From positions 1 through 54,707 of IMG/VR virus record IMGVR_UViG_3300025809_000025: DNA of 54,707 nucleotides, one strand, 5' to 3'. This stretch comes from a virus. Of the stretch, positions 5,264 to 15,956 are shown one piece after another (position 1 is the first letter of the stretch; each line of letters opens with the position of its first letter). The translations under genes and the position numbers were made by a program. Under the pieces are notes generated by a model that worked only from the letters and a program-made list of their open reading frames with translations, was not told the DNA's origin and made no database searches.

Positions 5264-6121
5264 TTAGGTCCACTTACCAACGCAAAGTGCGTCAGGAGTA
5301 ACAACCTTAGAACCGTACACCTTCAAACCACGTACCTGATCGCCAAAAGTGCTTTCCATGCGAACAGTTTCAGTGTTAGTGAACTGTGAAGCGAAGGACA
5401 ACGCTTTTGGGTGACCGGCTAGAACGTGGGTGTAACCCGCGTCGGCACCAGAAGCAGGGGCGTAAACCATGTTGCTTTGGAATACCTTGAAACGGTCAAC
5501 CATTCCAACCAATCCGTTACGGAGAGGAGAAGTAGCATCGCCAGTCAAGTACGCTTGACGCAACTCAGACTGCTTGAGCATAGAGATGAACTCAGGAGAA
5601 AGAACGATGAATCGACCTTCTTCTGGAATGTTCAACTCATCAAGAGTCTTAGAAAGAACCAAGATGTTTTCCAAAATGTTGGAAGACGTGATAGTCGTCT
5701 GTGCACCGATAGTAGTGGCACCAGTGACAGCGCTAGACAATACGTCAGTCTCAACTGCAATACGCATACCTTCAGAAGCATCAGTAGATGCAGCTTCTAG
5801 CATGTTAATGTCAGCTTGAGCAGCCAACACATCATCAACTTTAAAGCTGTAGTACTTAGCTTTATCAACAAGCATTTCTACTTTAGCAGTAGTCAGCTCT
5901 TGAGTTGTGATAGTGCCAGCGTAGTCATTAATAGTTACAGCCGGAACTGTACGAATAACAACTTTGTCGCCTTGACCAGAGATCTCACCTTCATAGTCGG
6001 TGTTTGAAATTTCGGGTAAAATTGATTTGCTGTAGAACTTAGCCTGAAGGAGTTTGGAAAACACCTCTGGGATAAAGTTTACTTCAGATGTAGCACCCGT
6101 TGAAAATTGTGAAAAAGACAT
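5264..6121 (-). CDS. Major capsid protein, 285 aa
   Basis: A 285-residue protein (MSFSQFSTGATSEVNFIPEVFSKLLQ...) with the layout of HK97-fold podovirus coat proteins: FIPEVFSKLL helix near residue 20, GDKVVIRTVP strand, then DVLAAQADINMLEAA and LNIPEEGRFIVLSPEF around residues 165-180. It follows the scaffold gene and is followed by a strong terminator, as expected for a highly expressed coat gene. No proteolytic delta domain is evident, so the separate upstream scaffold probably directs assembly. Confidence 0.9.
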   Translation of the reverse strand: MSFSQFSTGATSEVNFIPEVFSKLLQAKFYSKSILPEISNTDYEGEISGQGDKVVIRTVPAVTINDYAGTITTQELTTAKVEMLVDKAKYYSFKVDDVLAAQADINMLEAASTDASEGMRIAVETDVLSSAVTGATTIGAQTTITSSNILENILVLSKTLDELNIPEEGRFIVLSPEFISMLKQSELRQAYLTGDATSPLRNGLVGMVDRFKVFQSNMVYAPASGADAGYTHVLAGHPKALSFASQFTNTETVRMESTFGDQVRGLKVYGSKVVTPDALCVGKWT

Positions 6122-6140
6122 TTTATTACCTCACAAGAGA

Positions 6141-7061
6141 TTAGCGGCGTATCGATCCACTTTCCATCGCTTTGAGAATTTCTGTTTGATGCTTTTCAAA
6201 CACTTGGTTTGGCATCCTCATAATCTCATCGACAGTCCAGTATTTCTTATCGCCTTTAATTTGTGACTTTCGAGCTTTGGGCATTTTAGGTTCTGCAACC
6301 GTCTTTGCTCGCTCAAGAGCCTGCTCTTGCAGCGTGGGAGCTGGTACGCCCATATCCGCCTTAAACTTCGAAAGAACAGTGTTTACATCATTAGACGAAC
6401 CTTCTTGAATCCAAGTCTTCGTCTGAGCGTCCGCATCTTCTAACCAGTTCAACCAATCAGCAGAGTCCACAATGGAATCTACGTCAGGGTGTACAGATCG
6501 AATCCGCTCGAAGTGCTCAGCATGTGCCTGCGCCTCTAACGCCTGATATTTACTTTGTTCCTGCTCAGCTAAAGCTTCCTTAGCCTTACCAACTTCATCT
6601 TGCGTCCGCTTAAGTTCATCAAGCAAAGGTCCAGCTAGATCAGGATAATCTTCCCGAATCTGTGCCAGCTTGCTGTCATCCCTAGAAACTTCTACAAGTT
6701 GACTCTTCAACTCCGTAACACTTTTGATCAGGTCGGCATTTTGCCGCTTCAAGTCAGCAGTTTCTTGAGTTGCTTTCGTCATTCTCGCCTGTGCGCCCTT
6801 CATTGCTTTCTCGGCTTTTTCTAAAGCCAACTTCAGTTCCGAGTCCTCGCTGCGTTCTGACTCTTCTTCTGTGTCCTCATCCGCTTGAATTTCAACCTTG
6901 TCCGTGGGATCGGGGGCTTCTACTTGCAACGCCTCGGGTTCTTCTGGGGTATCCTCTTGAGGTTGATCTGCCTCTAGGGTCTCAGTCTTACCTTTAGTCA
7001 TTTGTTCGAACAATTCTTTCGCTTCAGCTTCCAGTCGCGCTGGGTCATTTCTCTTTGACAT
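6141..7061 (-). CDS. Capsid scaffolding protein, 306 aa
   Basis: A 306-residue acidic, almost wholly helical protein. Residues 20-90 are rich in Glu/Asp, residues ~75-190 form a coiled coil (LKLALEKAEKAMKGAQARMTK...), and the C-terminus is basic. Composition, length and position between portal and capsid match podovirus scaffolding proteins, which assemble inside the procapsid and leave before packaging. No protease motif is seen. The function is inferred from these features. Confidence 0.88.
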   Translation of the reverse strand: MSKRNDPARLEAEAKELFEQMTKGKTETLEADQPQEDTPEEPEALQVEAPDPTDKVEIQADEDTEEESERSEDSELKLALEKAEKAMKGAQARMTKATQETADLKRQNADLIKSVTELKSQLVEVSRDDSKLAQIREDYPDLAGPLLDELKRTQDEVGKAKEALAEQEQSKYQALEAQAHAEHFERIRSVHPDVDSIVDSADWLNWLEDADAQTKTWIQEGSSNDVNTVLSKFKADMGVPAPTLQEQALERAKTVAEPKMPKARKSQIKGDKKYWTVDEIMRMPNQVFEKHQTEILKAMESGSIRR

Positions 7062-7097
7062 TATTAATTTCCTTCGAGTCCCACAATGGGATATTCG

Positions 7098-7301
7098 TTA
7101 GTCTATTGCGGATATCCTTTTAGGGGTCCGCGCTTTGTCTAGAACGGCTTTTGCCGCGTCTTCAAGTTCAAGCATAAAACGCAGCTCTAATAGCCTGCCT
7201 TGCTCGAACCTAAAATTCGTCTCGTCTGCTCTTTCTAATGCTGATTGGGCACTATCAAATCGGGCTTTAATTAAGTCCCGAAGGAGATCCCATTCCGGCA
7301 T
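7098..7301 (-). CDS. Small helical protein between portal and scaffold, ~67 aa
   Basis: A helical protein (MPEWDLLRDLIKARFDSAQSAL...) that overlaps the 3' end of the portal gene by 35 nt. The frame is open further upstream to a TTG at 7382 with a GAGGAG sequence about 10 nt before it. That start would overlap the portal by 116 nt, and the extra residues mirror the portal poly-Gln region, so ATG 7301 is preferred. Small proteins of this type often follow podovirus portal genes; function unknown. Confidence 0.6.
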   Translation of the reverse strand: MPEWDLLRDLIKARFDSAQSALERADETNFRFEQGRLLELRFMLELEDAAKAVLDKARTPKRISAID

Positions 7302-9252
7302 TGCCTTGAGCCGCAGGATCGCCTGCGATTGCTGCCTGTTGCATTTGAGCTTGGAGTAATTGTTGTTGTTGCTGCTGTTCAAGAGCTACTTGCTCCTCAG
7401 TCTTAATAATTTCGTCGGGGTCAATATCCATGCTTTGAGCAATGTCTCGAAGAAGCTGTGTGCGCTTAACAACGCCACTTTGATCTTCCCCAACAATTGA
7501 CAAGAACTGAAGTAAACGCTGACTCTGTATCTCTTTCTGAACGAGAGAGGTACTGCCGCGTGCAACAATTCGCAAGTCACCCTTTGACTTCTCGTTAGTT
7601 CCAAACTCCATATTGAAGTGAAACAAAGCCTCAATCATTGGCTCAATCAAGAAGTCATCAATATTTTTAATTGTGCTTTTAAGTGCAATGTTTGCTGCAC
7701 CCATAAGCATAGACATACCTGTTGCTGTTTTATTTAGACCTTGTGTCTGCTCACCATGTGTATAGCTAGGTAGGCTAGTAGTCTCATCAGCAAATCTTCG
7801 GAATATCTCCACAATCTGGTTCAGTCCATTAGCGTTCGCTACTGGCTGATACCATCTAACAGCAGGCATAGAACCGTCTCCACCCTCACGCAAGAATACT
7901 CGCCAAGGGTGGATGTCTGTCGGGTCTTCTCCTGCTGCAAGCAAGTCTGTATTCACCTCGACCATAGGACCAGAAGACAAAGCCATGTTGTCTAGCCAGA
8001 TTCTTGTTGCGGTATTCATAGTTCCCTGAGAATCACGCATCATACGAGGCACGCCTGTACCCCAGAACTGATGGGGGCTGCGCTCATACGGGAAAATATG
8101 GTATGGAATTTTGTAACCAGTAATCGGGTTTAGCATTACTTTTAATACTTTCCCGTCACATACCCACACACAAGCAGAGTAATCATCAGAAAGATCTGCA
8201 TCTTCCTCCAACTCTATGCCGTGCTCTTCTAGCTCGTAACCATCTACAGTGCCCCAATACTCCATAACAACGAAGCGATTGGACTCAGAGTTCTCATGTA
8301 TACCAGCAATTCTGCGTCGTGTAGTCTCGTGATCTTCCTCTGTATGATTACCGTTACGGTGAATCTTAAGAAGATACTTAACCATGTCGCCATCAAACTG
8401 GGGTAGGTCAGCCAGATCACGCATTTGGCGGCGTGTTAAAACGTGACGACGGAACAATCCATCGCAGTCATCTAGCGTTGTGCAATAAGGGTCGGGATAT
8501 AGATCGAAGATGCTGACGCTTTCTACATCAGGAGCAACAGTTTCAACAACGCTGAGCGCATAACCCTGCTCACCGCTCTCTGGATCAAGCATCTTAGAGT
8601 AAGACTGCTTCTTATCTATCCGCACAGTACCAGCTTTTACGGCACCTGAACCAAAGATACATGCTTCTAACATGCTTTCTTTGAGCTTCATTTCTGCGTT
8701 GGTCTCTACAAGCTGGTCTTCAATGTCTACAGTCATAGACTCGGCAGCTTTTTTAGCCACCTCTATTTCTAATTCTAAAAACTCTTCCTCTAGCTCTGCC
8801 ATCCTTGCGGCTACCAAGTCCTGATTCATCATCGGATCTTGACCGCTTGCCATCATGATCTGCTCCATAGCCATCTGGCGCATTTGCATCGCCTTAAGAG
8901 GATCGATCTGAGGGACTGGGGTAGGGTCTACAGAAAAGAAAACATCGCCGTGCTGAAACAACAGGTCTATTATTCGACTGTAAGCAGCCATCACTTTTGT
9001 TCGTGTTAGCCCGACGAATACTTTTGATCGCGAACCAGACGCAGCATCTAGGCGTGCAAGTACATCAGGCTCATAAATGCCCTGATATTGGCGTAAGTCT
9101 TTTAGCCACTCGTTTTCTGTTTCTTTACGAGCGTCTTTATACTCTTGAAAAGTTCCGGCAAGACGAGAACCCAGACTCTGCATACTTTGCGCTTGCAAAC
9201 CATCTGGCTCTTTCTCTAGTTCTTCTTCACCTTCATACTCAGCATCATGCAT
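7267..9252 (-). CDS. Portal protein, 661 aa
   Basis: A 661-residue portal protein that forms the DNA-packaging vertex ring. The N-terminal block (ENEWLKDLRQYQGIYEPDV, residues ~50-70), a central FDLYPDPYCTTLDDCDG region, WGTGVPRMMRDSQGTMN, and a Gln-rich C-terminal tail are typical of large podovirus portals. It follows the terminase large-subunit gene after 3 nt, the canonical order. The poly-Gln tail (residues ~625-645) is low-complexity. Confidence 0.92.
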   Translation of the reverse strand: MHDAEYEGEEELEKEPDGLQAQSMQSLGSRLAGTFQEYKDARKETENEWLKDLRQYQGIYEPDVLARLDAASGSRSKVFVGLTRTKVMAAYSRIIDLLFQHGDVFFSVDPTPVPQIDPLKAMQMRQMAMEQIMMASGQDPMMNQDLVAARMAELEEEFLELEIEVAKKAAESMTVDIEDQLVETNAEMKLKESMLEACIFGSGAVKAGTVRIDKKQSYSKMLDPESGEQGYALSVVETVAPDVESVSIFDLYPDPYCTTLDDCDGLFRRHVLTRRQMRDLADLPQFDGDMVKYLLKIHRNGNHTEEDHETTRRRIAGIHENSESNRFVVMEYWGTVDGYELEEHGIELEEDADLSDDYSACVWVCDGKVLKVMLNPITGYKIPYHIFPYERSPHQFWGTGVPRMMRDSQGTMNTATRIWLDNMALSSGPMVEVNTDLLAAGEDPTDIHPWRVFLREGGDGSMPAVRWYQPVANANGLNQIVEIFRRFADETTSLPSYTHGEQTQGLNKTATGMSMLMGAANIALKSTIKNIDDFLIEPMIEALFHFNMEFGTNEKSKGDLRIVARGSTSLVQKEIQSQRLLQFLSIVGEDQSGVVKRTQLLRDIAQSMDIDPDEIIKTEEQVALEQQQQQQLLQAQMQQAAIAGDPAAQGNAGMGSPSGLN

Positions 9253-9255
9253 AGA

Positions 9256-10836
9256 TTAATAACCCGTCACAGGATCTAACGATTTAAAACGTTTTTGTAT
9301 AGTCCGGTGCCGAGGTCTCGGCATAGAAGCAAGTCCATGCAGGGCAATAGCATAAGCCATCACCCTGTCATCATAACATCCATTTTGGGAATTGTAACTC
9401 CCTTTATCATCAATGATGTAAGTTCGCAACTCATTTAATAATTCTATATCTGCAACACCGCTCTCTCCCTGCCTAAGCAGCGCCGCTAAATTGTCAACGA
9501 TTAATGGTTTTGTTTTGCTTGTCGTTAGAAAGCCTCCGCGTTTTGTCAAGCGATCTCCGTAGGCACCATCGACAGAACTCTCTACAAATAAATTTGAATA
9601 ACCTAAATCTTGCATTTTACGAAGCGTACCAAGACCGTGGTTGTTACGCTCAACTATTACATATGCAGTGTTATAGCGTTTTCCCAACATTGCTACTAGG
9701 GCGCCATAATCAAATGGATCTATGTGTCCGTGCCAACAGGCTACTTGATTGCCTAACGAGTCAAGTACTTGGGCGCAACTATAATCGCCATAGGCGAGAC
9801 CTTCCGCAACATCCACGCCAATGACGTAAGCTTCCTCTCTGGAGGGGGAATACCATTCTTGATAGTTGCCGTGTTCACGCTCAATTAAACTACCGTCAAT
9901 AATGTCGCCTTTAAAGTCTGCGGTGTAACAATTATTTTCACATTGAGATATCGCGGACTCTTCTACGAAACAACGACCGGAGGTTAAAAATGCTTCGAGC
10001 GGGGTACTAGGGTATTCCTGACGGAATAAATCTGTCCCACCTAACTCATCTAGTTTGGCGCGTCTAAATGAAAGTTGCTCATCGTCCAATCCATACTTTT
10101 GAGCCAGATCATATTCTTCTGGTGTAGCAACAAAGTAGGGCGATACTTTTTTTCTATACTCTGGCATCCAGTACCAAGGAATAAAGCAAGTAATCCACTC
10201 GGATTCGCCTCGAAGCGACTTCATTACCTGATCGTAGAACCATCCACCGGCACCATTGGCAGTACTCTCTAGAATTACCTCAGTGTTCTTACCACCGACA
10301 GTCTGTAATAGACCTGCGACTATGTCTGATCCTTGTGGGTAGAACGCCACTTCAGAGCCGTGGACAAATCGATTTGTTTGTCCTCGTCCCGTTTGGGTTG
10401 ATCTTGCTGTTCCGACCCTGTATCGCGAATTGATGTCATCAAAAACCAACGTTGACGCCGACTGACTAGCGAGCGGCGGCTTAAATGCCGGATGCGGGAC
10501 ATTGTCATAAAAGTATCTCACCATGTTAAAAATTGCGTTAGTAGATTCGGCAAGATGCGACAGTACGAATGCGTTAGCATTGCGATTCTGCGTGACTTTC
10601 CAGAAGTTTCTGCCCTGTGTGTACGTCGATATTCCGGTTTGGCGAGCTTTCAGGACCAATGCGCGGATATTTCCCTGATCTTTTAGCTGCTTTTCAAGCA
10701 TGGCATGGACATGTAACTGTGCAGCATTTAGGACAAAAGGCTTGGATTCACCCTCTTTTGTCACGATTTTCAGCATATTCTTACTATATAAAGGGAAGTT
10801 ACCCTTCAATTTGCGAGCTACCTCTTCAATTTCCAT
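9256..10836 (-). CDS. terL: Terminase large subunit, 526 aa
   Basis: The ATP-driven DNA-packaging motor and headful nuclease. A Walker A-like motif KARQTGIST lies at residues 63-71, and a Walker B-like strand EVILESTANG near residue 190. The RNase H-fold nuclease has GVDVAEG (Asp342), VIVERNNHG (Glu396) and DDRVMAYA (Asp489/490). All expected acidic residues are present, so the enzyme should be active. The start codon overlaps the HNH gene by 11 nt and the portal follows at once. Confidence 0.96.
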   Translation of the reverse strand: MEIEEVARKLKGNFPLYSKNMLKIVTKEGESKPFVLNAAQLHVHAMLEKQLKDQGNIRALVLKARQTGISTYTQGRNFWKVTQNRNANAFVLSHLAESTNAIFNMVRYFYDNVPHPAFKPPLASQSASTLVFDDINSRYRVGTARSTQTGRGQTNRFVHGSEVAFYPQGSDIVAGLLQTVGGKNTEVILESTANGAGGWFYDQVMKSLRGESEWITCFIPWYWMPEYRKKVSPYFVATPEEYDLAQKYGLDDEQLSFRRAKLDELGGTDLFRQEYPSTPLEAFLTSGRCFVEESAISQCENNCYTADFKGDIIDGSLIEREHGNYQEWYSPSREEAYVIGVDVAEGLAYGDYSCAQVLDSLGNQVACWHGHIDPFDYGALVAMLGKRYNTAYVIVERNNHGLGTLRKMQDLGYSNLFVESSVDGAYGDRLTKRGGFLTTSKTKPLIVDNLAALLRQGESGVADIELLNELRTYIIDDKGSYNSQNGCYDDRVMAYAIALHGLASMPRPRHRTIQKRFKSLDPVTGY

Positions 10837-11278
10837 GATTATTTACCACCGCCTTACACCACCAGACAAAGTCATGGTCATCCATATCGTTTCTCATTAA
10901 ATTTATTCGGGCGCAAACAAACCTAATATTGCCTTCGACGTAACCTTTATCCGTATCAATACGGTCTGGGCTCGCACATAAATCAGAATAATCAGTACTT
11001 GTGTGCATAGGTATGTTAGAGATGGCGCAAATGCCCCTTTGCTGCTCGTATAAGCTCATTAAGTACTCAAGTGATACTAGGGTGCCCGCATAATTCTTTT
11101 GCTTGTGACGTTGTTTAATGCTCGTTAATCGGGCTCCAAGAAAAAGCTCTACCGTCGAGTTCTGTCTATCTCTATTCCTTGATGTCCGGCACTTGTTACA
11201 AGCTCCACGATTTGCAGAAAAGTTACCTATTGATTTGGTAATCCCGCATATGTTGCACTCTTTACTTTCAGCCGCCAC
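10826..11278 (-). CDS. HNH-type (His-Me finger) endonuclease with zinc finger, 150 aa
   Basis: Starts at GTG 11278 with a GAGGA Shine-Dalgarno inside the upstream gene (52-nt overlap). An N-terminal zinc finger (CNIC...CNKC, residues ~8-30) is followed by a C-terminal segment with GICAISNIPM, SPDRIDTDKGYVEGNIRFV and INLMRND, the arrangement of small phage HNH/homing-type nucleases. It lies directly before terL. HNH proteins beside terminases assist packaging in some phages, but it could equally be a freestanding homing endonuclease. Confidence 0.75.
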   Translation of the reverse strand: MAAESKECNICGITKSIGNFSANRGACNKCRTSRNRDRQNSTVELFLGARLTSIKQRHKQKNYAGTLVSLEYLMSLYEQQRGICAISNIPMHTSTDYSDLCASPDRIDTDKGYVEGNIRFVCARINLMRNDMDDHDFVWWCKAVVNNHGN

Positions 11279-13825: not shown

Positions 13826-13854
13826 TTGACAAGCGATTCTCTAGAGATTACGGT
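13826..13854 (+). promoter_or_regulatory. Early promoter candidate 2
   Basis: A perfect -35 TTGACA (13826-13831) with a 17-nt spacer to a weak -10 TACGGT (13849-13854). It would drive the early operon from about 13861. Tandem arrangement with candidate 1 suggests regulated early transcription. Confidence 0.5.
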
Positions 13855-13856
13855 GC

Positions 13857-13933
13857 GAACCATGAAGTGTTGATTAGACACTGATTCCGACCCAGAGGTC
13901 ATGGGGGCGCTCGGAGAATCCAAGGATGGTTTC
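13857..13933 (+). ncRNA. Structured early leader (three-way-junction fold)
   Basis: Complementary segments predict a closing helix AACCAT/ATGGTT (13858-13863 with 13926-13931), a hairpin AGTGT/ACACT (13866-13870 with 13878-13882), and a longer arm GATTC/GAATC plus CGA/TCG (13883-13920). It lacks ribozyme core sequences I know. It lies between the early promoters and the hammerhead, so it could be a regulatory RNA or an insulating leader. Prediction by eye only. Confidence 0.4.
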
Positions 13934-13957
13934 AATGAGTGAAGCGGCAAGACCCAC

Positions 13958-14013
13958 TAAGTGTCTGCATCTACCTGATGCACTGATGAGGGCAAGCAAG
14001 CCCGAAACACTTA
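13958..14013 (+). ncRNA. Hammerhead ribozyme, type III topology
   Basis: All catalytic-core elements are present in order. Stem III is TAAGTGT (13958-13964) with ACACTTA (14007-14013), 7 bp. The cleavage triplet GTC ends at C13965. Stem I is TGCATC/GATGCA (13966-13982), 6 bp with loop TACCT. The core CTGATGA lies at 13983-13989. Stem II is GGGC/GCCC (13990-14003) with loop AAGCAA, followed by GAAA at 14004-14007. Every stem is perfectly paired. Cleavage is expected between 13965 and 13966, about 66 nt before the first early gene. It lies in the leader of the early operon, one base before a Shine-Dalgarno hairpin. Confidence 0.93.
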
Positions 14014-14014
14014 C

Positions 14015-14027
14015 TGCCGAGGAGGCA
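14015..14027 (+). promoter_or_regulatory. Shine-Dalgarno hairpin 1
   Basis: TGCC-GAGGA-GGCA: a 4-bp stem with the Shine-Dalgarno in loop and 3' arm, 4 nt before ATG 14032. It starts one base after the hammerhead. Member of a set of five such hairpins. Confidence 0.6.
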
Positions 14028-14031
14028 CAGC

Positions 14032-14208
14032 ATGACCATTCAAGTATTGATTAAAAACAATTACGGAACCCAAGCCGTCTACCCTACCTGCACTGTCGGT
14101 GAAACCTTTGCACAGATCGCAGGAACCAAGACTTTGACCGATGAGACCAGAGCGCTAATGAAGAGACTGGGCTATCAATTTGAAGCCAAGATGGAGGTGT
14201 CGCTGTGA
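14032..14208 (+). CDS. Small early protein, 58 aa
   Basis: A 58-residue protein (MTIQVLIKNNYGTQAVYPTC...) with a strong GAGGAGG Shine-Dalgarno. It reads as a short beta-hairpin followed by a helix with many Thr. It is the first gene of the early operon, directly downstream of the ribozyme. Its stop overlaps the next start (GTGA), which supports it. No family is recognised; first early genes of phages often counter host functions. Confidence 0.75.
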   Translation: MTIQVLIKNNYGTQAVYPTCTVGETFAQIAGTKTLTDETRALMKRLGYQFEAKMEVSL

Positions 14209-14309
14209 AACTATTTAAAGCGTTTATCGAGACTAACCTAGCAATCTATCTAGTTGGCGCTTGGGTGACGGTTACCGTCATCTATATCGCCTTTAGCAAC
14301 CTAGCCTGA
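14205..14309 (+). CDS. Small membrane protein, 34 aa
   Basis: GTG start at 14205 with GGAGG upstream, overlapping the previous stop by 4 nt. The peptide is almost entirely one membrane segment (AIYLVGAWVTVTVIYIAF). Overlap and Shine-Dalgarno make translation likely. Role unknown; small early membrane proteins can act in superinfection exclusion or host takeover. Confidence 0.6.
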   Translation: MKLFKAFIETNLAIYLVGAWVTVTVIYIAFSNLA

Positions 14310-14316
14310 GGAGGCT
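14303..14316 (+). promoter_or_regulatory. Shine-Dalgarno hairpin 2
   Basis: AGCCT-GAGG-AGGCT: 5-bp stem with a GAGG tetraloop, 4 nt before ATG 14321. It overlaps the stop codon of the 34-aa gene, so a ribosome finishing that gene would open the hairpin. Confidence 0.65.
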
Positions 14317-14320
14317 CACC

Positions 14321-14587
14321 ATGTCCCAAACATCAAGAAAGATCACCTACTTTCAACACAGCAACGGTGTTGATTTCGCTTACGAGGCAAACAACCCTGC
14401 TGATAGTTGGCTACCAGTCGTCAACTATCCGCACAGAGTCTGGGTCAGTTGCAACCCAATTAATGACTCAGGTTGGCGATATGCCAACGTTAAAAAGACT
14501 GTCGCCTATATCGTTGTCGATGAGGACGACCACGGTCAGCCAGTGATCGAGAAGTGGTCAATTAAGAATCACCGTAACTTCCATTGA
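14321..14587 (+). CDS. Early protein, 88 aa
   Basis: An 88-residue protein (MSQTSRKITYFQHSNGVDFAYEANN...) with several Trp and aromatic residues and predicted beta-rich fold. It has an excellent Shine-Dalgarno within hairpin 2. No family recognised. It lies between a small membrane protein and the ArdC-like antirestriction gene. Confidence 0.78.
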   Translation: MSQTSRKITYFQHSNGVDFAYEANNPADSWLPVVNYPHRVWVSCNPINDSGWRYANVKKTVAYIVVDEDDHGQPVIEKWSIKNHRNFH

Positions 14588-14599
14588 GTAAGCACTGAG

Positions 14600-14620
14600 A
14601 GCGCCTTCGCTGAGGGCGTT
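14600..14620 (+). other. Hairpin between the 88-aa gene and ardC-like gene
   Basis: AGCGCC/GGCGTT, a 6-bp stem with a G-T pair and a 9-nt loop. It lacks a U-run, so it is probably not a terminator. The 73-nt gap also carries Shine-Dalgarno hairpin 3. Confidence 0.35.
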
Positions 14621-14641
14621 CAACTGTATTTATTCAACTCA

Positions 14642-14653
14642 GCCTGAGGAGGC
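14642..14653 (+). promoter_or_regulatory. Shine-Dalgarno hairpin 3
   Basis: GCCT-GAGG-AGGC: 4-bp stem with the GAGG tetraloop, 7 nt before ATG 14661. Confidence 0.55.
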
Positions 14654-14660
14654 AACCATT

Positions 14661-15530
14661 ATGAAAAAATATGACGAACTATTTGAGAAAGTAACCAACC
14701 GAATTATCCAGAACCTAGAGAGCGCTGATCGATGGCAGAAGCCGTGGGCTTCAATCGCTGACGGATCAGTACCCCATAACGCCAGTACAGGCAGACCCTA
14801 TTCTGGGATCAACTTCTTTAACCTTGGGTTTGAGTCTGAAAAGTGGGGGAACACTGGATGGCTAACCTACAAACAAGCTACCGCTCTGGGTGGCACTGTA
14901 CCCAAGAACAGCGCAGAGAATGGCGGCTGTGAGTATGTCTGGTTTATGGCTAAGTCGATCTATAAAGATAAGCAGACTGGCGATGACAAGATGGGATTTA
15001 TCAACAAGTGCTTCCCAGTATGGAATGTTGCCCAGATCGAAGGGCTAGAGGGTGGCAAGCAATACACCCCACCATCAGCGGGTACAGGTGCAGTCAACAG
15101 ACTGGCTGATAGCCTCAACATCAATCTTCAATATGGTGGTGATAAAGCTTGTTTCATCCCATCCATTGACACCATCAAGATGCCATCAGTTGATGCCTTT
15201 ACGACTGAGGCAAATCATGACGCAACCCTGCTTCATGAGATGGTCCATTGGACTGGTCACTCTGACCGACTAAAGCGCCAGATCAATAACAGCTTTGCAT
15301 CTGAAGGCTATGCCTTTGAAGAGTTAGTTGCTGAGTTAGGTGCGGCAATGGGTGGTGCTCTGTTAGGTATCCCCTACGAGGGACTGCAACACGAGTCCTA
15401 TATTAAGTCATGGCTTAAGTCTCTTAAGGATGACCCCAGACATATCGTTAAGGCGGCTAAGCAAGCGTCTAAGGCTGTTCAGTATCTAGATGAGAACGGT
15501 AGTACTGACCTATTGGAGCAGGCGGCATAA
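14661..15530 (+). CDS. ArdC-like antirestriction protein, 289 aa
   Basis: Residues 1-120 resemble the ArdC N-terminal ssDNA-binding domain (KPWA, YSGINFFNL, GWLTYKQATALGG, CFPVWNVAQ). The C-terminal domain is a zincin-like metallopeptidase: HEMVH at residues 192-196 and a downstream FEELVAELG near residue 220 supplying the third ligand. ArdC proteins protect incoming DNA from restriction enzymes, and the early position fits. Length (~290 aa) is normal and the active-site residues are intact. It lies inside the segment bracketed by the two ribozymes. Confidence 0.92.
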   Translation: MKKYDELFEKVTNRIIQNLESADRWQKPWASIADGSVPHNASTGRPYSGINFFNLGFESEKWGNTGWLTYKQATALGGTVPKNSAENGGCEYVWFMAKSIYKDKQTGDDKMGFINKCFPVWNVAQIEGLEGGKQYTPPSAGTGAVNRLADSLNINLQYGGDKACFIPSIDTIKMPSVDAFTTEANHDATLLHEMVHWTGHSDRLKRQINNSFASEGYAFEELVAELGAAMGGALLGIPYEGLQHESYIKSWLKSLKDDPRHIVKAAKQASKAVQYLDENGSTDLLEQAA

Positions 15531-15564
15531 GGGTGAAAGATTTATTTTCCCCGACTCAAAAAAT

Positions 15565-15622
15565 TCTAGCTGATGAGCAACTGGATGGTGACCAGTCGAA
15601 ACGCCCAGTGGGGCGTCCTAGA
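15565..15622 (+). ncRNA. Hammerhead ribozyme, type I topology
   Basis: Stem I (open ended): TCTAG (15565-15569) with CTAGA (15618-15622). The core CTGATGA lies at 15570-15576. Stem II: G15577-C15597 plus ACTGG/CCAGT (15580-15584 with 15592-15596), with a 2-nt CA bulge and a 7-nt loop. GAAA lies at 15598-15601. Stem III: ACGCCC/GGGCGT (15601-15606 with 15611-15616), 6 bp with loop AGTG. The triplet GTC ends at C15617, the expected cleavage site. The bulge next to the core in stem II is unusual and could lower activity. It lies 34 nt after the ardC-like stop and 8 nt before Shine-Dalgarno hairpin 4. Confidence 0.88.
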
Positions 15623-15630
15623 TAACCAAC

Positions 15631-15650: not shown

Positions 15651-15956
15651 ATGCAAAAAGCACACTTGCACCTCATTAAATGGGGCTTAGAAAAAGGATA
15701 CACAATTGAGGTTGATATTGAAGGTCATCATGAGTATCGCGGTACTAGCTACAAGGAAGCAAAGGAAGCCAGTGAAGCCGGAGATATGGGCTGTATATAT
15801 CTTATCACTGGTCAAGCCGAAACAGACTACTCCTACTTTGGCTATATGCACGAGTGGAAGCAAAATCCTGATGAAATAATCTATGACTACGGTCTTGATG
15901 CTGTCTCTGAAGAATGGGCGCGTGATTACGATAAGCATTGCGAGGTTGCGGAATGA
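15651..15956 (+). CDS. Early protein, 101 aa
   Basis: A 101-residue acidic protein (MQKAHLHLIKWGLEKGYTIEVDIEGHHEYRG...). It starts with a helix and a strand and carries many Tyr, Glu and Asp. No family is recognised with confidence. Its stop overlaps the next start by an ATGA junction. Acidic small early proteins sometimes mimic DNA, but that is speculation. Confidence 0.78.
   Translation: MQKAHLHLIKWGLEKGYTIEVDIEGHHEYRGTSYKEAKEASEAGDMGCIYLITGQAETDYSYFGYMHEWKQNPDEIIYDYGLDAVSEEWARDYDKHCEVAE

Follow-up and report, generated by a model that had tools for sequence, protein, structure and literature searches.

A type III hammerhead ribozyme in the early-operon leader of a probable temperate phage, with a proposed role in processing the early transcript

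The early operon of a virus, probably a temperate tailed phage, carries on its coding strand a genuine type III hammerhead ribozyme, confirmed here from its sequence and predicted to cleave itself. We think it likely that this ribozyme, acting in cis, processes the early transcript as a protein-free form of RNA punctuation. Our data support two hammerheads in the operon, their conservation, their placement and a covarying leader RNA; cleavage, and punctuation as its purpose, we infer. The window, that is, the whole stretch of DNA analysed, comprises 54,707 bases and constitutes a single virus record. Its assignment to the temperate tailed phages follows from genes for a terminase, a primase/helicase, a Sak recombinase, a YqaJ nuclease and an integrase. 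Relatives of the terminase and primase are scattered over many hosts, the best matches having about 30-38% identity. The ribozyme is composed of the following parts.

13958-14013, plus strand: type III hammerhead ribozyme (RF00008 match, paired stems), cleavage predicted between C13965 and U13966
13958-13964 with 14007-14013, plus strand: stem III, 7 bp, the U16.1-A15.1 pair counted in
Last base C13965, plus strand: cleavage triplet GTC
13966-13971 with 13977-13982, plus strand: stem I, 6 bp, loop UACCU
13983-13989, plus strand: CTGATGA core
13990-13993 with 14000-14003, plus strand: stem II, 4 bp, loop AAGCAA
14004-14006, plus strand: GAA core, the next base being A15.1 at 14007

The invariant core is complete (CUGAUGA, GAA and an NUH triplet with its U16.1-A15.1 pair), and the helix topology is that of type III, with stem III open-ended and stems I and II closed by loops. 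The coordinates, core and stems of 7, 6 and 4 bp given in the initial annotation proved exact on re-examination. That annotation had also proposed a covariance-model search, with a score below threshold as grounds for rejection. Run with cmscan on the isolated stretch, RF00008 (Hammerhead_3) matches over the full model length at E 8.8e-9 (1.1e-9 when computed for the window), which upholds the element, and with a score of 42.8 bits, which is short of the Rfam gathering score of 48.5 and so falls on the rejecting side of that wording. Seven other records score 31.9-40 bits, all below the same gathering score, and at E 0.001 the model finds no match in 14 control genomes. Rfam scans of the whole window and of a 601-nt stretch did not list the type III hammerhead, probably because of their speed filters.

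A loose descriptor requiring at least 3 bp per stem finds a single type III copy in the window, with 17 bp in total; applied to 150 dinucleotide shuffles, it gives 0.033 matches per shuffle and a maximum of 14 bp. The 58-nt element alone folds as a hammerhead with a minimum free energy of -19.8 kcal/mol (z -3.9), equalled by none of 200 shuffles. A chance match is ruled out by the shuffles, by the folding z and by conservation across independent contigs with two-sided changes, and thus the claim that a random origin was very unlikely holds. Other CTGATGA...GAAA strings of the window (8149, 22276 and 38622) were rejected, as their stems do not fit, and a CRISPR-DR16 match at 13929-13953 was set aside as chance (17.6 bits against a gathering score of 35).

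Contact between loops I and II speeds type III hammerheads. In the window such a contact is not obvious (UACCU against AAGCAA) and would have to be non-canonical; Watson-Crick pairing between the loops is possible in the L025 group only (UACCU with AGGUA).

Searching the virus collection by pattern and by protein relatives, we recovered 16 more contigs that carry this hammerhead in the corresponding position. Across nine distinct sequences, 99.2% of the cells in the stems are paired and five pairs are changed on both sides, against 18-48% paired in every one of the slid controls. The two-sided changes are confined to stems I and II, for example TGCATC/GATGCA to TGCGTC/GGCGCA in stem I and GGGC/GCCC to GATC/GATC in stem II; stem III is invariant in the counted pairs and therefore gives no covariation evidence. 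In contig L196 the stems are altered and the cleavage triplet is GUA, yet fold and place are kept. The leader hammerhead of L198 looks damaged (CTGACGA followed by an extra T). As read from first codons, the gene directly 3' of the hammerhead is not constant: L011 and L027 have an ArdC gene there, the window shares the 58-aa gene with L046, L048 and L080, and L012, L025, L028, L140 and L176 have still other genes. Since the next gene differs between relatives, the hammerhead is part of the leader rather than of any single gene.

The initial annotation had placed the ribozyme in the leader of an early operon, between early promoters and the first early gene. The features of this operon are given below.

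13826-13854, plus strand: probable sigma-70 promoter (TTGACA 13826-13831, 17-nt spacer, TACGGT 13849-13854)
13855-13956, plus strand: leader RNA form A, helices P1-P4, about 100 nt, directly 5' of the hammerhead; predicted 5' cleavage product
14015-14027, plus strand: small hairpin TGCC-GAGGA-GGCA with a Shine-Dalgarno box in its loop
14032-14208, plus strand: first early gene, 58 aa, no assigned function; another gene stands there in several relatives
14321-14587, plus strand: 88-aa protein, PHROG 23785, function unknown
14599-14621, plus strand: weak terminator-like hairpin, GTATTTATT tail, separating two early genes
14661-15530, plus strand: ArdC-type anti-restriction protein (PF08401 E 1.5e-20, PF18818 E 3.5e-40)
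15563-15624, plus strand: type I hammerhead ribozyme 3' of the ArdC gene, ahead of the following gene; predicted to cut after C15617
15625-15628, plus strand: 3' flank ACCA, predicted to form a pseudoknot with loop II (UGGU) of the ribozyme at 15563-15624
15651-15956, plus strand: 101-aa gene after the type I hammerhead, no assigned function

A promoter about 100 nt on the 5' side and a first ATG 66 nt on the 3' side sustain the leader placement, and we call the operon "early" because of where it lies and which genes it holds (ArdC, small genes). Most relatives share the TTGACA box and a CCTAGAGATTA spacer, and their -10 boxes read TACAGT, TATACT or TATATT. The -10 box of the window is weak, and our promoter scan missed it. 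Hairpin-borne Shine-Dalgarno boxes like that at 14015-14027 precede most early genes, in the window and in relatives alike; the GAGGAGG boxes of the early genes (14019, 14308, 14646, 15637 and 16294) lie inside small hairpins of the type NCCTGAGGAGGN, and five of the six plus-strand GAGGAGG strings of the window are located in this operon. The ArdC-type protein consists of the ArdC N-terminal domain and a zincin-like metallopeptidase domain, both by Pfam.

Two further elements had been overlooked when the leader hammerhead was first recognised, the structured leader RNA on its 5' side and the type I hammerhead beyond the ArdC gene. The evidence for the leader structure is comparative, since the window leader alone folds no better than shuffles. 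Form-A leaders show nine pairs changed on both sides and 91.8% of cells paired, a level reached in none of 500 shuffles. Our model of this form (R1) finds 14 other loci, each with a type III hammerhead directly 3', and a search with a leader-only pattern gave nine true form-A leaders, all nine followed by the hammerhead; the 17-mer pattern used in viral contigs gives mostly chance matches, of which only those with a full leader were kept. Form B (L017, L019, L025, L046, L049, L196 and L198) also ends in the hammerhead. Form C, of about 300 nt (L030, L034, L045 and L195), has another structured domain ahead of the first gene, keeps the type I arrays described below and is without the leader hammerhead, which is thus dispensable in these relatives. 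The leader 13855-13956 has no match in Rfam. The exact hammerhead pattern has no match in 84,980 species genomes, the form-B leader motif gave unrelated matches only in these genomes, and DNA searches of phage isolates and plasmids gave no match to the leader; these searches thus found no bacterial genome or isolated phage carrying it. The three forms measure about 100, 165 and 300 nt, and the longer ones have repeated GAAAGC...GCGAGTA hairpins resembling loop E motifs (L017, L025, L030, L034 and L045), likewise without an Rfam match.

The type I hammerhead starts 32 nt past the ArdC stop codon. RF00163 scores it at 20.8 bits (E 5.4e-4), with the gathering score of 34 not reached, and our family model R2, which was built from the relatives and includes this copy, gives 70.8 bits. 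It has the core, stems and GUC triplet of the type together with the putative loop II pseudoknot, and there is a two-base bulge (CA) in its stem II. Across relatives, 13 of 17 stem pairs of the family are changed on both sides. Covariation also links loop II to the 3' flank (UAGUU/AACUA, UGGU/ACCA and GGG/CCC), with a mean of 4.38 pairs against 3.86 (highest 4.34) when the flanks were dealt among the sites. Pseudoknots of this kind are on record for natural hammerheads (PMC3088659).

In related contigs the model search finds up to seven type I copies (L033, L034 and L035). Their layout is uniform, with a stop codon touching the ribozyme, followed by a Shine-Dalgarno box and a start codon. Box and start lie within 90 nt downstream in 105 of 126 distinct copies, against 5 in the antisense control, and the median distance to the next start is 25 nt. 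The upstream stop codon has a median position of -2 nt, and its presence near the ribozyme does not discriminate (113 against 82 in the control). The array layout recurs in a distant phage, the 79-kb contig L023, which is of a different kind and in which the model finds seven type I copies and a looser descriptor eight; there, the copies at 5575-10954 stand at gene junctions with hardly any Shine-Dalgarno boxes. Several type I copies have altered cores (TTGATAA, CCGATGA or CTGAAGA) and may be dead or decaying. Core-altered hammerheads, TTGACGA being a further form, were observed at L028 5904, L028 8344, L036 1374 and L045 5259 and in L198, and if inactive they would be natural dead controls.

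We propose the following course of events. Transcription would start near 13860 and run through the structured leader of about 100 nt, then the hammerhead, then the genes. Self-cleavage after C13965 would release the leader RNA, ending in a 2',3'-cyclic phosphate, as 5' product and, as 3' product, an mRNA whose 5'-OH stands right on the stem I hairpin, 66 nt ahead of the first ATG, and which would display its Shine-Dalgarno box in the loop of a further hairpin. The type I hammerhead would cut after C15617, past ArdC, and the ArdC message would end on ribozyme hairpins. The mature early mRNA is thus predicted to span 13966-15617 (1652 nt), with the 58-aa, 88-aa and ArdC genes and ribozyme hairpins at both ends. 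We hypothesize that such punctuation would provide defined and stable mRNA ends, uncouple the leader from the genes and, with no need for a host nuclease, divide a long early transcript into shorter mRNAs.

Decay that depends on the 5' end is impeded when an mRNA has a 5'-OH and a terminal hairpin. For this reason, and because of the RiboJ effect and of ribosome-binding boxes borne on hairpins as in RiboJ, we favour protein-free punctuation as the best reading. In E. coli, RiboJ, a type III hammerhead plus hairpin set between promoter and gene, increases transcript about 2-fold and protein two- to tenfold (PMC6206723). Punctuation is also in agreement with the perfect core and stems, with the low E value and with 16 further contigs keeping the ribozyme in place despite a differing first gene. 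The two-sided changes in stems I and II, the fold retained with GUA in L196, the second hammerhead in the same operon, the arrays at gene junctions of relatives and the covariation of loop II with the 3' flank as a pseudoknot all argue for it. Moreover, the hammerhead clusters that Perreault et al. (2011) reported on either side of prophage genes, ardA included, were proposed by these authors to process transcripts; these clusters cleave in vitro, and the ardA triple also in vivo in E. coli (PMC3088659). On the other side stand the RF00008 score below gathering, the loop contact that is not obvious in the window, competing stem III pairings given by in-context folding in several relatives, the longer-leader relatives without a leader hammerhead, the core-changed type I copies of relatives and the bulge in the type I copy of the window.

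The chief rival to punctuation is that the leader RNA is the main point, as a trans-acting or an antitermination RNA. The leader would then be an undescribed class of RNA, probably of one of these two kinds, and the hammerhead would detach it from the mRNA as soon as it is made, leaving it to stay with RNA polymerase or to act in trans; we consider this unlikely. If true, it would give natural hammerheads of bacteria and phages a concrete role, with the type I arrays as protein-free punctuation of the same transcript. In its trans-acting version it is the 5' product that matters, the hammerhead trimming the 3' end of the leader and releasing a small RNA, for instance for host or phage regulation. 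In forms A and B the structured leader extends up to the hammerhead, which follows every one of the nine form-A leaders from the leader-only pattern, as would be expected of such an RNA. However, form C has no hammerhead and extends into its additional structured domain ahead of the first gene, the type I copies elsewhere in the operon free no such RNA, and no target is known, which makes the trans-acting version quite improbable.

For the antitermination version the model is HK022 put, a structured antitermination leader at the start of the phage early transcript. The leader analysed here likewise is a structured RNA at the start of an early transcript, with no match in sequence or structure established, and to our knowledge HK022 has no hammerhead. 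The leader would ride with the polymerase through terminators of the early operon, and the hammerhead would free the mRNA while the polymerase keeps the leader. Room for this reading comes from the terminator-like hairpins between co-directed early genes (L045 4545 and 4943, L025 921 and 1662, L028 4571 and, weakly, window 14599), which suggest antitermination or attenuation in the operon, although the scans rest on consensus matches and exceed shuffles only modestly. They are hairpins followed by a T run on the coding strand, and for the genes past them we found no convincing promoter of their own; the leader itself is promoter-proximal. Nevertheless, neither boxA nor boxB was recognised and a relationship in sequence to put RNA was not established, and we hold an antitermination leader to be improbable too, a little more so than a trans-acting one.

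A regulated ribozyme, in which the leader or a ligand sets the formation of stem III and cleavage controls early expression, is very unlikely. In the window, L011, L012 and L080, the strands of stem III can pair alternatively within the full leader; however, the competing strands are not kept in L115, L140, L176 and L121, which have other P1 sequences, and no known riboswitch matches. A conserved switch between stem III and leader helix P1 was accordingly rejected as a general mechanism. Hammerheads elsewhere serve mobile or circular-RNA elements, and RtcB-type ligases can join the ends left by two cuts. A remnant of such an element (retrozyme-like or viroid-like) with no phage role is hardly credible here, as the window has two hammerhead types 1.6 kb apart with coding genes between them instead of tandem near-identical copies at the borders of a short noncoding unit, the copies vary in sequence and type, covary and stand at gene junctions with phage genes between, and Perreault et al. 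sought spliced or circular products and saw none (PMC3088659).

Clustered prophage hammerheads near an anti-restriction gene are a known kind, published in 2011, and hammerhead enrichment near Mu-like phage genes is already on record. The window follows the same plan, with more than one hammerhead flanking gene blocks of one putative phage transcript, around small genes that include an anti-restriction gene, and with pseudoknots joining stems I and II; for the published clusters cleavage has been demonstrated. They differ in that the anti-restriction gene here is of the ArdC type and not ardA, the type III copy has a constant position, preceded by a covarying leader RNA and followed by the first gene, and the arrays of relatives, with as many as seven type I copies, have a uniform stop-hammerhead-Shine-Dalgarno layout. 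As far as the literature searched goes (largely without subscription papers), the fixed tie to a covarying leader RNA, the ribozyme-less leader form and the regular arrays are new. Core, stem order and GUC triplet are shared with the RF00008 members of viroids, satellite RNAs and plant genomes, whereas loops and stem sequences, the score below gathering, the DNA phage context and the single copy without tandem repeats are not. Like RiboJ, a synthetic insulator made of the sTRSV hammerhead and a hairpin, the phage element is a 5'-leader hammerhead followed by a hairpin near the ribosome-binding site and predicted to yield a hairpin-capped mRNA with a 5'-OH; unlike the engineered RiboJ, it is natural and preceded by a conserved structured leader.

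The role of hammerheads in bacteria and phages is listed among open questions (PMC6155905), in agreement with the initial annotation, and this phage group makes it testable. Its members form a natural series in which each ribozyme is present or absent: the leader copy keeps one place in many relatives and was lost or never acquired in a sister group, and the type I copies at gene junctions vary in number up to seven, in a layout that predicts exact RNA ends. This suggests a possible natural source of RiboJ-like insulators and of intergenic processing parts. Type III hammerheads of other sequence are also present in unrelated virus contigs (L015 12235, L022 1880 and L024 1741), those of L015 and L022 each having an ATG shortly downstream.
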